A stretch of 64,000 nt of DNA from Hyphomicrobiales bacterium (lineage in GTDB: Bacteria > Pseudomonadota > Alphaproteobacteria > Rhizobiales > Rhizobiaceae), in assembly GCA_900466945.1 (NCBI GenBank), contig UBNV01000016.1, positions 186,001-250,000 of the forward strand. The letters run 5' to 3'. Positions 1,831 through 4,538 of this stretch are shown in pieces; position 1 is the first letter of the stretch, and each line of letters starts with the position of its first letter. The position numbers and the translations under genes were made by a program. The notes beneath the pieces are model-generated. The model worked only from the letters and a program-made list of their open reading frames with translations, was not told the DNA's origin and ran no database searches.

Positions 1831-3288
1831 TCAAAGCGCAGGTAAGGTCTCGGCGAGCCGACGCACGTCCTGCATATCGGACCGGAAGGCTGCCAGACTG
1901 CGCGCCTTGAGATCCTCGTCCGGCATTCTGAGTATGGCCGCCGGATGGGTGGTGACGAGCAGCATGCGGCTCTCCTGCATCGGGATTGGCATACCGCGCA
2001 CTTCGGCGATCGGTCGGCTTTCGCCGGTCAGCGAGAGATAGGCGGTAGCCCCGAGTGCCACCACGATGCGCGGCTGGATGATCTCGATCTCCTTGGCCAC
2101 CCACCAGCGGCAATGCGCGACCTCGCCCGCATCGGGCCGCATATGAATGCGCCTCTTGCCGCGCCGCTCATATTTGAAATGCTTGACCGCATTGGTGACA
2201 TAGACCTGGGTCCGGTCGATCCCGGCCGCCTCCACCGCCTCGTCGAAGATCTTGCCGGCGGGACCGATGAAGGGGCGTCCGGCGAGATCCTCGGTATCGC
2301 CGGGCTGTTCGCCGACGAAGAGGATATCGGCATCGTCAGGCCCCTCGCCGAACACTGTCTGCGTCGCATGGCAATGCAACGAACACAGCGTGCAAGCGGA
2401 GGCCTCCTGCCGCAAGCGCTCGAGCGGCGGCAGATCGGTGGCGTCCTCCTCGTCCCGTCCGCGCCACTGCGCCTGCAGCCGCTCGTGAAAGGCCGGCGGC
2501 TGGCTCGCCTGCCGCGCCGCCATCTCGGCCACGCGCCGCTCGGCGCCCGCGATCAGGTCCGGAATGAGCGAGGCTTCCGGCATATTCTTCCAATATTTCT
2601 TCGGCATTTCAGACTGCATGGCCCGAATCTTGACCCGCGCCGGATTGAAGATATTGGCGAAATAGGTGCGCCACAGTTCGTCCGTCTCGTCCTCACCCTC
2701 CGGCCGGGCGGCAGGTTCGCAGGACGTCTTGAGCTCCTGTCCGTTCCAGGCCGCAGACCCCTTCGGCGTGGCGATCAGCCAGTCCATATCGGTGAATCGC
2801 CGCTGGAAGAAACCGGCCGTGCGCGCAACAATGAAGTGCTCCGGCTCGAACCAGGCGACGAAACGTCGCCGCCCGGATTGAACGGCCTCCACCTCGCGAA
2901 ACCGCACGAAAGCCTTCATCTTGTGGCTGTCCCGCCTCACGTTCTTGATCAAGCGGACCACGTGCGACACGTCGGCGTCGGACGTCACCTGCAACAAGTT
3001 GCGCTCGCCCTGGAGACGCCAGAGGATGCGATAGAGAAGCGAAAACCGATCCGGATCCGAATGGCAGATCGCCGCTTCTGCCGCCTCGATGAAACTCTTG
3101 GGCACGATCATCTCGGACGGTGCGGTTTGCGCAGGCTGCGGCTCTCCAGCGACCCCGAACAGATCTCCGCCCTGCCCCAACAACTGCCAACGCACCTGCT
3201 CCGGCGCGACCGCGTCGACAAGCAAACGGCGGGCGGCATCCCGCCACTCGCTAAAGCCGCCCTGCCCCTCAAGCGACACCGTCCGCAT
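1831..3288 (-). CDS. DUF4130 - UdgX-type uracil-DNA glycosylase fusion protein
   Basis: Protein of 485 residues with two parts. Residues about 1-250 look like the DUF4130 'probable DNA metabolism protein' domain that is usually found next to radical SAM repair proteins. Residues about 290-480 are a uracil-DNA glycosylase fold with motif GEQPGDTED (326-334), the UdgX signature KRRIH (378-382) and THPAAILR (447-454); C299 and C302 are probable iron-sulfur cluster ligands, C393 may be another. In characterised UdgX the histidine of KRRIH (here H382) traps uracil covalently, so this protein may bind uracil in DNA irreversibly instead of releasing it. Its ATG overlaps the stop of the radical SAM gene by one base (TGATG), implying translational coupling. 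Confidence 0.88.
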   Translation of the reverse strand: MRTVSLEGQGGFSEWRDAARRLLVDAVAPEQVRWQLLGQGGDLFGVAGEPQPAQTAPSEMIVPKSFIEAAEAAICHSDPDRFSLLYRILWRLQGERNLLQVTSDADVSHVVRLIKNVRRDSHKMKAFVRFREVEAVQSGRRRFVAWFEPEHFIVARTAGFFQRRFTDMDWLIATPKGSAAWNGQELKTSCEPAARPEGEDETDELWRTYFANIFNPARVKIRAMQSEMPKKYWKNMPEASLIPDLIAGAERRVAEMAARQASQPPAFHERLQAQWRGRDEEDATDLPPLERLRQEASACTLCSLHCHATQTVFGEGPDDADILFVGEQPGDTEDLAGRPFIGPAGKIFDEAVEAAGIDRTQVYVTNAVKHFKYERRGKRRIHMRPDAGEVAHCRWWVAKEIEIIQPRIVVALGATAYLSLTGESRPIAEVRGMPIPMQESRMLLVTTHPAAILRMPDEDLKARSLAAFRSDMQDVRRLAETLPAL

Positions 3289-4517
3289 CAGAACAGCGAC
3301 AATTGCTCGGCCGGCGGCGCGAAGACGGATCTGAGATCCGACCGGTCGAGGCTGCGATTAGGCGACCAGCCTTCCGCGACGATGAAGGACCGCACCTTCT
3401 TCAGTGACACGCCGAGGCGCGCCAGATCTTCCAGCCGCACCCGGCGATGCCGGCGGGCAGACAAGAGCCCCCTGACCGTCTTCGTGCCGAAACCGGGCAC
3501 GCGCAACAGCGTCTCGCGATCCGCCTTGTTGACATCGACTGGAAAGCGGTCGCGATTGGCGAGCGCCCAGGCAAGCTTCGGATCCAGCTCCAGGTCGAGC
3601 ATCCCGCCCTGCCCGATCGACGAGATCTCATCGACCGAGAAACCGTAGAAGCGATAAAGCCAGTCGGCCTGATAGAGGCGATGCTCGCGCATCAGGGGCG
3701 GCTTGATCAGCGGCAGGTTTTTGGAACTGTCGGGGATCGGGCTGAAGGCGGAGTAATAGACTCGCTTCAAGCCGTAGGAGCTGTAGAGCCGCGCACTCGA
3801 CCCAAGGATCGTCGCATCATCAGCCCCATCCGCCCCGACAATCATCTGCGTACTCTGGCCGCCCGGCACGAACTTCTTGCGCCGACCGGTATGCGTCGGC
3901 TCACGCGCCTCGTCTATCTTCAGCCTCAGATCCGCCATCGATCGGCGAATGTTCACGGGCCGCTTCTCCGGAGCATAACGCTCCAGCCCGTGATCGGTCG
4001 GCAACTCGATGTTGATCGACAGGCGGTCGGCATAGAGCCCTGCCTCCTCGACAAGACGGGCGGAGGCCTCGGGGATCGTCTTCAGGTGAATATAGCCACG
4101 AAAATCATGCTTGGTCCTCAAGTCCCGGGCAACCTTGACCATCTCCGCCATCGTGTCGTCGGACGAGCGGATGATCCCGGACGACAGGAACAGACCCTCG
4201 ATGTAATTGCGCCGATAGAACTCGATCGTCAGCCATACCACTTCATCCGGCGTGAAGCGCGCGCGCTCCACATTGCTCGAAGAACGATTGATGCAATAGG
4301 CACAGTCGTAGATGCAGAAATTCGTCAGCAGGATCTTCAACAAGGAGATGCATCGACCATCCGGTGCATAGGCATGGCAGATGCCCGATCCCTCCGTCGA
4401 ACCGAGACCGCCGGAGGCCGCGGAGTCGCGCTTGGTCGTCCCGCTCGAAGCGCAGGAGGCATCGTATTTCGCAGCGTCGGAGAGAATGGCAAGACGTTCT
4501 TTGAGCGACTTCTTCAT
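3288..4517 (-). CDS. Putative DNA modification/repair radical SAM protein
   Basis: Radical SAM protein of 409 residues with the cluster-binding motif CIYDCAYC (C68, C72, C75). It has a C-terminal helix-hairpin-helix DNA-binding region (about 320-385, containing VNKADRETLLRVPGFGTKT). This matches the family called 'putative DNA modification/repair radical SAM protein', which is genetically linked to UDG-like proteins; the reaction is unknown. It is the first gene of a two-gene leftward operon with the UdgX fusion. A perfect LexA-type direct repeat lies 7 bases upstream of the ATG, so SOS induction is likely. Confidence 0.88.
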   Translation of the reverse strand: MKKSLKERLAILSDAAKYDASCASSGTTKRDSAASGGLGSTEGSGICHAYAPDGRCISLLKILLTNFCIYDCAYCINRSSSNVERARFTPDEVVWLTIEFYRRNYIEGLFLSSGIIRSSDDTMAEMVKVARDLRTKHDFRGYIHLKTIPEASARLVEEAGLYADRLSINIELPTDHGLERYAPEKRPVNIRRSMADLRLKIDEAREPTHTGRRKKFVPGGQSTQMIVGADGADDATILGSSARLYSSYGLKRVYYSAFSPIPDSSKNLPLIKPPLMREHRLYQADWLYRFYGFSVDEISSIGQGGMLDLELDPKLAWALANRDRFPVDVNKADRETLLRVPGFGTKTVRGLLSARRHRRVRLEDLARLGVSLKKVRSFIVAEGWSPNRSLDRSDLRSVFAPPAEQLSLF

Positions 4518-4523
4518 AAGAAT

Positions 4524-4538
4524 GTTCTGTAAATGTTC
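4524..4538 (-). promoter_or_regulatory. LexA (SOS) box, GTTC-N7-GTTC
   Basis: The plus strand reads GTTCTGTAAATGTTC, an exact match to the direct-repeat LexA box of alphaproteobacteria (GTTC-N7-GTTC). It sits 7 bases upstream of the radical SAM start codon, where a repressor would block transcription or early elongation of the repair pair. Confidence 0.75.

Follow-up and report, generated by a model that had tools for sequence, protein, structure and literature searches.

The DNA analysed in the current study, here called the window, is a 64,000-nt stretch from a Hyphomicrobiales bacterium (Rhizobiaceae; GCA_900466945.1, contig UBNV01000016.1, positions 186,001–250,000, forward strand). It carries a radical SAM gene and a gene for a DUF4130-UdgX fusion protein, both on the minus strand, with a LexA-type box in front of the former. 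Numbered from the first base of the window, the features are:

1831–3288, minus strand: DUF4130-UdgX fusion gene, 485 aa, scoring above the TIGR03915 and TIGR03914 cut-offs
2143–2157, minus strand: KRRIH, the UdgX R-loop motif, read from the translation
2569–3288, minus strand: DUF4130 domain (TIGR03915), encoded beside the radical SAM gene at almost every locus
3288–4517, minus strand: radical SAM gene, 409 aa, assigned to TIGR03916 (rSAM_link_UDG) by family score
3291–3305, minus strand: QLSLF, predicted C-terminal beta sliding-clamp binding motif, read from the translation
3453–3587, minus strand: helix-hairpin-helix (HhH) region, residues 311–355, from weak Pfam HHH_5/HHH_3 matches
4293–4316, minus strand: CxxxCxxC radical SAM cluster motif (C68, C72, C75), conserved without exception in the 46 aligned proteins
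4524–4538, plus strand: LexA (SOS) box GTTCTGTAAATGTTC (GTTC-N7-GTTC), an exact match conserved in orthologues

The radical SAM gene starts with an ATG at 4517–4515 (minus strand), and the start of the fusion ORF overlaps its stop codon by one shared base (TGATG). An earlier sequence-only reading had described the two genes as translationally coupled, and the overlap of the ORFs (4517–3288 and 3288–1831) is consistent with such coupling. For comparison, 163 loci were gathered; loci came from 54 of the 84 genomes above the TIGR03916 cut-off (30 + 20 + 4), and the best 80 of 587 relatives were taken from the relatives search. Two loci with no radical SAM ORF (L029, L030) were dropped and three for which the script set no proper start (L189–L191) stand outside the count, which covers 158 loci, 132 alphaproteobacterial and 26 others. 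Of the 132 alphaproteobacterial loci, 130 have DUF4130 next to the radical SAM gene, as do all 26 others. A UdgX domain was not found in 17 of the 26 non-alphaproteobacterial loci, and 7 of the 132 alphaproteobacterial loci were likewise without a UDG domain nearby, one of which (L156) has a separate UDG-like ORF farther downstream. Since 17 of the 26 lack a detectable UdgX domain, the core of the system is, judged by gene content, the pair of radical SAM and DUF4130 proteins.

With 567.6 bits against TIGR03916 (cut-off 343.5), the CxxxCxxC motif and a TIGR03915 partner adjoining, the radical SAM protein is a member of this family, which we take to be equivalent to COG4277. The Pfam Radical_SAM match amounts to 33.1 bits, the AlphaFold2 model (pLDDT 82.8) has a radical SAM barrel, and three further cysteines (C22, C47, C56) are invariant among the 46 aligned proteins. 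The HhH region gives Pfam HHH_5/HHH_3 matches at E 0.016, below Pfam's own cut-offs, and matches the PDB profile of a ComEA-related protein (E 0.009); it is likely to bind DNA. No solved relative of the whole protein was found by sequence search. The closest folds to the model were tied, lipoyl synthase 4u0o (Z 18.2) and HydE 7o1o (Z 17.9), a likeness that reflects the common barrel and is uninformative on the substrate, and the absence of spore photoproduct lyase among the 50 best structural matches listed excludes nothing. The family is widespread, being above cut-off in 84 of 398 Pseudomonadota genomes, and the control genome, that of Caulobacter vibrioides, also gave a match; searches of open-licence papers turned up no published substrate for it. 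In phage collections, relatives turned up in 10 records labelled as phage (8 being fecal scaffolds with no annotation) and on 2 viral contigs; tails were read for L190 and L191.

The fusion protein scores 219.2 bits against TIGR03915 (cut-off 112.25) and 317.5 bits against TIGR03914, the UdgX family (cut-off 189.95), with Pfam matches to DUF4130 (139.4 bits) and UDG (108.8 bits). Both hallmarks of UdgX, GEQPG (motif A) and KRRIH (R-loop), can be read in it, and the histidine of the latter is presumably the DNA-linking residue. The UdgX domain matches the solved chains 6iod and 6ajo (E 1e-46), which we take to be UdgX of Mycobacterium smegmatis, and has GEQPG, KRRIH and a UDG domain (162 bits) in common with them; unlike the solved protein, it is fused behind DUF4130, and its gene is coupled to that of the radical SAM protein. 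The KRRIH motif of UdgX is named in PMC10359453. DUF4130 itself has been predicted to be a mutagenesis-related enzyme, tied to radical SAM photolyases and UDGs, that might modify thymines (PMC3765255). Sequence search found no solved relative of DUF4130. The best PDB matches of its AlphaFold2 model (pLDDT 87) were mostly DHH/DHHA1 proteins, namely PAP phosphatase 8a8k (Z 8.3, rmsd 4.6, 179 aligned), RecJ 5f54 (Z 7.5, rmsd 3.9, 178 aligned), Cdc45, family II pyrophosphatases and the C-Ala domain of AlaRS. That DUF4130 is a dead RecJ/Cdc45-like protein was set aside and is kept as a lead only: Z values of 7–8 are usual for models without a clear structural match, Foldseek returned nothing at E <= 0.001, and hhalign against 23 RecJ proteins gave a probability of 0.4% (unrelated control, 0.2%).

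The sequence-only reading had placed an exact GTTC-N7-GTTC box 7 bases upstream of the radical SAM gene. It is found at 4524–4538, reads GAAC-N7-GAAC on the strand of the gene, and leaves 6 bases before the start codon, so that, counted from its edge, the A of the ATG is 7 nt away. Against a LexA matrix built from the orthologues' boxes, the window box among them, it scores 17.8, exceeding the boxes of recA (16.8) and lexA (14.8) in the same genome, as against -5.2 to 8.5 for the four remaining exact boxes of the window. The genome's own lexA has its box about 45 nt upstream, and recA, an ImuA-like gene, uvrA, dinB and a gene for a UvrD/PcrA-like helicase also stand behind such boxes.

Conservation upstream of orthologues, which had been proposed as a check, is pronounced. 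The box is present in 130 of the 132 parsed alphaproteobacterial orthologues, within -110 to +5 of the start chosen by the script, compared with 22 of 7457 control stretches of 120 nt taken elsewhere in these loci (0.3%). The beta/gamma LexA box, CTGT-N8-ACAG, occurs instead in 18 of the 26 non-alphaproteobacterial orthologues and in none of the 132 alphaproteobacterial loci, and the only Clostridia locus has two GAAC-N4-GTTC sites upstream; none of the three exact LexA box types tested was found in 7 of the 26. A conserved GTTC-N7-GTTC in the promoter region is what marks a member of the alphaproteobacterial LexA regulon, and this conservation is the decisive evidence for SOS control of the pair. 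The comparative data, together with the boxed lexA, recA, ImuA-like, uvrA and dinB genes of the same genome, strongly support the earlier proposal of SOS control, and the pair is almost certainly under the control of LexA.

At its C-terminus the radical SAM protein carries QLSLF, which agrees with the clamp-motif consensus QL[S/D]LF given in PMC3716654. The strict motif is found at the tail in 152 of 158 orthologues and a looser Q-x-x-hydrophobic pattern in all 158, the glutamine being kept throughout; in the last 12 residues the strict motif occurs in 151 of 158 orthologues versus 10 of 1633 other long ORFs. Three further tails, from L189–L191, read QLSLW, QLSFF and QLSMF. As the AlphaFold2 model has no helix or strand past residue 399 (tail block pLDDT 70), this is a conserved short motif in a flexible tail, the sequence signature of a clamp ligand. 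Docking of the radical SAM protein on the beta clamp through QLSLF is very probable, and because the motif fits the replication clamp, the reaction probably takes place where damaged DNA is copied. The clamp-type tail seems to be a new observation for this protein.

A second feature that seems new is the neighbourhood of the mutasome genes. In 21 of the 132 alphaproteobacterial loci, imuA-, imuB- or dnaE2-like genes are found close to the pair, the ImuA and ImuB labels having been given by similarity to weakly scoring genes of the genome itself (ImuA 45 bits, cut-off 150). In 8 of these it sits between imuB and dnaE2 on one strand, in 9, such as that of Henriciella (L091), it is divergent from imuA, and 4 are partial views. 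The gap between imuB and the radical SAM gene is short in only two of the 8 loci, L106 (88 nt) and L126 (52 nt); in the others gaps of 475–1315 nt leave possible further genes on either strand. In the genome of the window the mutasome lies elsewhere, on contig C13. Co-occurrence with ImuA is weak and confounded by kinship (23/28 vs 73/122, Fisher p 0.03).

Taken together, the gene families, the operon, the conserved box, the conserved tail and, in some lineages, the mutasome neighbourhood are supported by sequence; LexA binding, clamp binding, DNA as the substrate and every chemical step are inferred. The reading preferred here, which we consider moderately probable, is that of a LexA-repressed module for the repair or editing of DNA bases, docked on the replication clamp and active at damaged replication forks. 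DNA damage would lead to cleavage of LexA and production of the coupled pair; the radical SAM protein, tethered to the beta clamp through QLSLF at its C-terminus, would hold DNA with its HhH region and use SAM-radical chemistry on a base that is damaged or mispaired, with the DUF4130 protein as its partner. The UdgX domain, in this genome part of the DUF4130 protein, would remove uracil and trap or seal the abasic site, and the module may help to deal with lesions in the context of translesion synthesis, as carried out by the ImuA-ImuB-DnaE2 mutasome. It is likely that DNA is the substrate of the pair. The earlier suggestion that SOS control hints at damaged DNA is reasonable, with the clamp-type tail and the mutasome neighbourhood as further hints; that the reaction is a direct reversal of a lesion, not a programmed base change, is given slightly less than an even chance.

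One rival reading is that the box is a chance match. Exact boxes are common enough that a bare one alone is weak evidence, since the window count is not unusual (5 vs 2.04 expected, with 5 or more in 8 of 100 shuffles) and the genome holds 146 (109 in the reversed control); the AT-rich form GTTCN5WTGTTC is found 26 times versus 6 in the control. A chance match is nevertheless extremely improbable and in effect refuted by the orthologues, as it recurs, position and AT-rich spacer included, in 130 of 132 alphaproteobacterial ones and gives way to the other LexA box in 18 of the 26 others. It is also quite improbable that QLSLF is a structural or processing tail kept for some other reason: only Q405 (entropy 0, invariant in 46 of 46 aligned proteins) and L408 (0.26) are strongly conserved, the rest of the tail being variable, five-residue QLSLF and six-residue QLALPF/QLSLGF forms interchange among orthologues, and the same tail recurs in a distinct radical SAM family (PA0069). 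What speaks for such a tail is that the strict motif was not found at the C-termini of the genome's own DnaE1, DnaE2 and DinB, so that the in-genome support for the clamp's preference comes from HdaA (335.3 bits, cut-off 297), which carries QLPLAF near its N-terminus. The ImuB-like protein likewise has no strict motif, and MutS has QLIDDLPLF near its C-terminus.

Two further alternatives concern the chemistry. In a uracil base-excision pathway, UdgX would excise the uracils that error-prone synthesis leaves behind, with the radical SAM protein acting on the UdgX-DNA cross-link or abasic site. The GEQPG and KRRIH hallmarks and the 8 loci between imuB and dnaE2 agree with this, as does the suggestion in PMC8565304 that the UDG handles misincorporation by SOS polymerases, but so many pairs have no UDG domain nearby (17/26 and 7/132, see above) that a UdgX product is improbable as the radical SAM protein's general substrate; the UdgX adduct was set aside in that role, and the pathway as a whole is unlikely. 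Less likely still is a mutagenesis enzyme, in which the radical SAM protein would alter normal bases, for example thymine, to raise the mutation rate during SOS. The DnaE2 neighbourhood and the prediction for DUF4130 in PMC3765255 would suit such a role, yet abasic-site trapping by a glycosylase domain would more naturally be a means of keeping mutation down.

The clamp-working repair or editing module favoured here has several known counterparts. That operons of this kind are under SOS control is not new, because PMC8565304, with the earlier work it cites, already reports a LexA-run operon, the two-gene COG1573-COG4277 operon of Bacteroidetes, and cites Verrucomicrobia and Alphaproteobacteria for the UDG-based system. 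As here, a UDG-family protein and its COG4277 partner are under LexA; the available text of that paper presents them as a UDG base-excision system, while the clamp-type tail and the mutasome neighbourhood are described in the current study. In human UNG2-PCNA (PMC13292882) the repair of uracil or other bases is likewise tied to the replication clamp, with the difference that the clamp motif here is on the radical SAM partner and not on the UDG protein.

The mutasome shares LexA control with the pair, and in 17 of the 132 alphaproteobacterial loci the pair is flanked by imuB and dnaE2 or diverges from imuA; ImuB binds the clamp in mycobacteria. Unlike the mutasome, the pair has no polymerase and would contribute radical chemistry and uracil trapping instead. 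The SplB-like PA0069 family (NF033668) also combines a radical SAM protein with an upstream LexA box (26 of 28 loci) and a C-terminal clamp-type motif (27 of 28), with 2 of 30 loci in one set and 1 of 34 in another left unparsed. The window protein falls outside that family, as NF033668 gave no match to it in NCBIfam at E 0.01. There is about an even chance that clamp-tethered radical SAM enzymes induced by SOS form a class in bacteria, with at least two distinct families (TIGR03916 and the PA0069/SplB-like one), whose task at the replication fork, alongside the DnaE2 mutasome, is to edit base lesions or reverse them; the operon described here would be a member with a uracil-trapping partner. 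LexA control, the clamp tag and the mutasome neighbourhood narrow the search for the substrate to DNA at stalled forks, in the company of DnaE2.

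The radical SAM gene and its coupled partner lie on the minus strand of the window, with the following features:

4524–4538: LexA box, GTTCTGTAAATGTTC, with six bases between it and the radical SAM ATG
4517–3288, minus strand: radical SAM gene, 409 aa (TIGR03916, 567.6 bits)
3288–1831, minus strand: fusion gene of TIGR03915/DUF4130 and UdgX (TIGR03914), 485 aa, assigned by family matches
2569–3288, minus strand: DUF4130 domain, part of the fusion gene
C68, C72 and C75 of the radical SAM protein: radical SAM cluster, invariant in a 46-row alignment
C22, C47 and C56 of the radical SAM protein (window 4454–4452, 4379–4377 and 4352–4350): additional cysteines, invariant in the same alignment

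The TIGR03916 family is taken here to be the same as COG4277. The sequence-only reading had described an exact box before the radical SAM gene and a UdgX-fusion gene coupled to it, and both are present, the ATG of the fusion gene overlapping the radical SAM stop codon. Beyond the box is a GreA-family gene, transcribed away from the pair.

The bare GTTC-N7-GTTC pattern is common in this genome, with 5 exact copies in the window against 2.04 expected, and 146 genome-wide against 109 in a reversed control. An AT-rich form is rarer (26 in the genome versus 6 in the control), and precedes recA, uvrA (an SSB-like ORF, identified by eye, lies on the far side of the box), dinB, YifB, and genes for a UvrD/PcrA-like helicase, a PA0069 radical SAM protein and an ImuA-like protein (45 bits, under the cut-off of 150). 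The remaining AT-rich boxes have no clear target gene. The sole LexA match above cut-off in the genome is preceded, at a distance of about 45 nt, by an exact box. Elsewhere in the genome, GTTC-N7-GTTC is found 18 nt before an AlkZ-like DNA glycosylase gene (PF06224, 244.8 bits; contig C26 near 75751, locus L043), possibly another SOS gene, and 17 nt before a gene for a DUF5680 protein (contig C16 near 601960, locus L036).

Orthologues were parsed from 158 of 163 loci, comprising 132 from Alphaproteobacteria (classed from record titles, partly by way of the genus, or from a kinship column; L128 is titled only Pseudomonadota) and 26 from other groups. An exact box occurs within -110 to +5 of the start in 130 of the 132 alphaproteobacterial orthologues and with one mismatch in the other two, compared with 22 of 7457 other 120-nt stretches from the same loci, the sample being phylogenetically clustered so that these counts are not independent trials. 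None of the 26 other orthologues has this box; 18 of them carry CTGT-N8-ACAG, which is found in none of the 132, and the Pusillibacter (Clostridia) orthologue has two GAAC-N4-GTTC sites. Seven have no exact box among the types tested, two of these showing CTGT-N8-ACAG with one mismatch. By comparative sequence standards the pair is a LexA target, because its operator changes in step with the LexA motif, and LexA would be expected to bind the box in the window. At one locus (L029, genome G050) the pair has decayed, with in-frame stops and missing parts, and the LexA box in front (GTTCACTATTTGTTC) is still intact.

The SOS control proposed from the sequence alone is thus well supported by conserved, lineage-matched boxes, and is already in print. 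Passages of PMC8565304 report that a COG1573-COG4277 operon of Bacteroidetes is under LexA-type control, cite Verrucomicrobia and Alphaproteobacteria for a UDG-based system, and place SplB (COG1533) under SOS control. A passage of PMC3765255 associates DUF4130 with UDG and with radical SAM proteins of the SplB-like kind. Since these passages already publish SOS control of such a pair, the headline of the finding is known biology. What makes the pair worth a second look is a clamp-type tail, the same tail in a second radical SAM family, and a mutasome neighbourhood.

The translated radical SAM protein ends in QLSLF, and the beta-clamp consensus is given as QL[S/D]LF in PMC3716654. Within the last 40 residues, the strict clamp pattern is present in 152 of 158 orthologues (the six exceptions read QASLF, QGSLF, QRSLF or QGALF) and a looser pattern in all 158, while the strict pattern occurs in 4.8% of shuffled tails and 0.8% of 40-aa windows taken elsewhere in these proteins. 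The motif falls in the last 12 residues of 151 of 158 orthologues; of 1633 other long ORFs, real and spurious, 10 have it there. In the 46-row alignment, which includes proteins from Bacillota, Fusobacteriota and Gammaproteobacteria, entropy is zero at Q405 and 0.26 at L408, and residues 402–404 and 407 vary freely. Among the orthologues, five- and six-residue forms of the motif interchange. No helix or strand is predicted beyond residue 399, and the tail is a probable docking site for the sliding clamp. HdaA of the same genome (NF006571, 335.3 bits, cut-off 297) has QLPLAF near its N-terminus; the strict motif is absent from the tails of this genome's DnaE1, DnaE2, DinB and ImuB-like protein.

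The SplB-like family PA0069 (NF033668) has the same plan. Its member in this genome (contig C22, about 429355–430510; locus L041, 286–1440) is preceded by a LexA box at 60 nt and ends in QLSLL. Across Alphaproteobacteria the tail is found in 27 of 28 parsed members, and 26 have the box no more than 500 nt ahead of a conserved codon. A second, non-overlapping set came from a phylum-wide search, with loci from 39 of the 43 genomes above cut-off, three of which fall outside the 33 parsed loci as unparsable or parsed only with the 28. Of these 33, 23 have the strict tail, 32 a strict or QxxLF-type tail, and 24 a LexA box of either type. A literature search, with most subscription papers outside its scope, found no publication on a clamp tail of radical SAM proteins; among the matches listed, a mycoplanecin paper alone pairs sliding-clamp terms with radical SAM.

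At least 21 of the 132 alphaproteobacterial loci have a gene resembling imuA, imuB or dnaE2 (the ImuA-ImuB-DnaE2 mutasome) close to the pair, a lower bound because some loci show only 1.5 kb of flank. In eight, assigned to Sphingomonadales by record title or by genus (L106, L107, L111, L112, L117, L126, L129 and L136), the genes run imuA-imuB-radical SAM-DUF4130/UdgX-dnaE2 along a single strand, and a LexA box stands ahead of the radical SAM gene. The gap from imuB is 52 nt in L126 and 88 nt in L106, and in the other six is 475–557 nt (three) or about 1.25–1.3 kb (three, up to 1315 nt), with possible extra genes, some on the opposite strand. A single operon is therefore plausible, as judged from gene spacing, for L106 and L126. 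In nine loci (L007, L009, L011, L021, L091, L157, L158, L159 and L163) the pair diverges from imuA, and in seven of them the box is 96–99 nt ahead of the radical SAM start, on the imuA side; the remaining four of the 21 are partial views. DnaE2 is backed by NF004225 (cut-off 939) in L111 and the window's genome (1103 and 1336 bits), while ImuA and ImuB labels reflect similarity to genes of this genome that are themselves below the cut-offs of the ImuA and Pol IV models. In an order-level sample, an ImuA-like gene co-occurs with the pair in 23 of 28 genomes versus 73 of 122 (Fisher p 0.03, kinship ignored).

As six cysteines of the radical SAM protein are invariant, three of them beyond the radical SAM cluster, a second Fe-S cluster at C22, C47 and C56 is possible. 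In the stretch examined, these three N-terminal cysteines are missing from a Gemmatimonadota relative at greater distance (L189), which retains QLSLW. Lipoyl synthase and HydE are tied as nearest folds to the predicted barrel. DUF4130 adjoins the radical SAM gene in 130 of 132 alphaproteobacterial loci (L118, without it, ends near a contig edge) and in 26 of 26 others. In 122 of 132 and 9 of 26 loci, respectively, DUF4130 carries a fused UDG domain, and one more alphaproteobacterial locus has that domain on a separate protein; L156, counted as lacking UDG, has a UDG-like ORF further downstream. UdgX of the window contains GEQPG and KRRIH and matches solved UdgX. The predicted fold of DUF4130 (2569–3288) is similar to that of DHH/DHHA1 proteins, RecJ and Cdc45 among them (Z up to 8.3), a likeness unsupported by profile comparison. 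The radical SAM gene also occurs on 158 plasmid records, most often of Phaeobacter (58), followed by Paracoccus (15), Azospirillum (11), Leisingera (10) and Agrobacterium (9).

The explanation that we lean towards, with confidence lowered because tight placement next to imuB is seen in two loci and not eight, is an SOS-induced, clamp-docked module that would carry out base editing or repair at damaged forks. The sequence itself shows the protein families, the coupling of the two genes, the box, the tail and the gene neighbourhood, and from these the binding of LexA, the docking on the clamp and the chemistry are inferred. The core of the module is the radical SAM protein and DUF4130, and UdgX may contribute uracil removal in those lineages that possess it.
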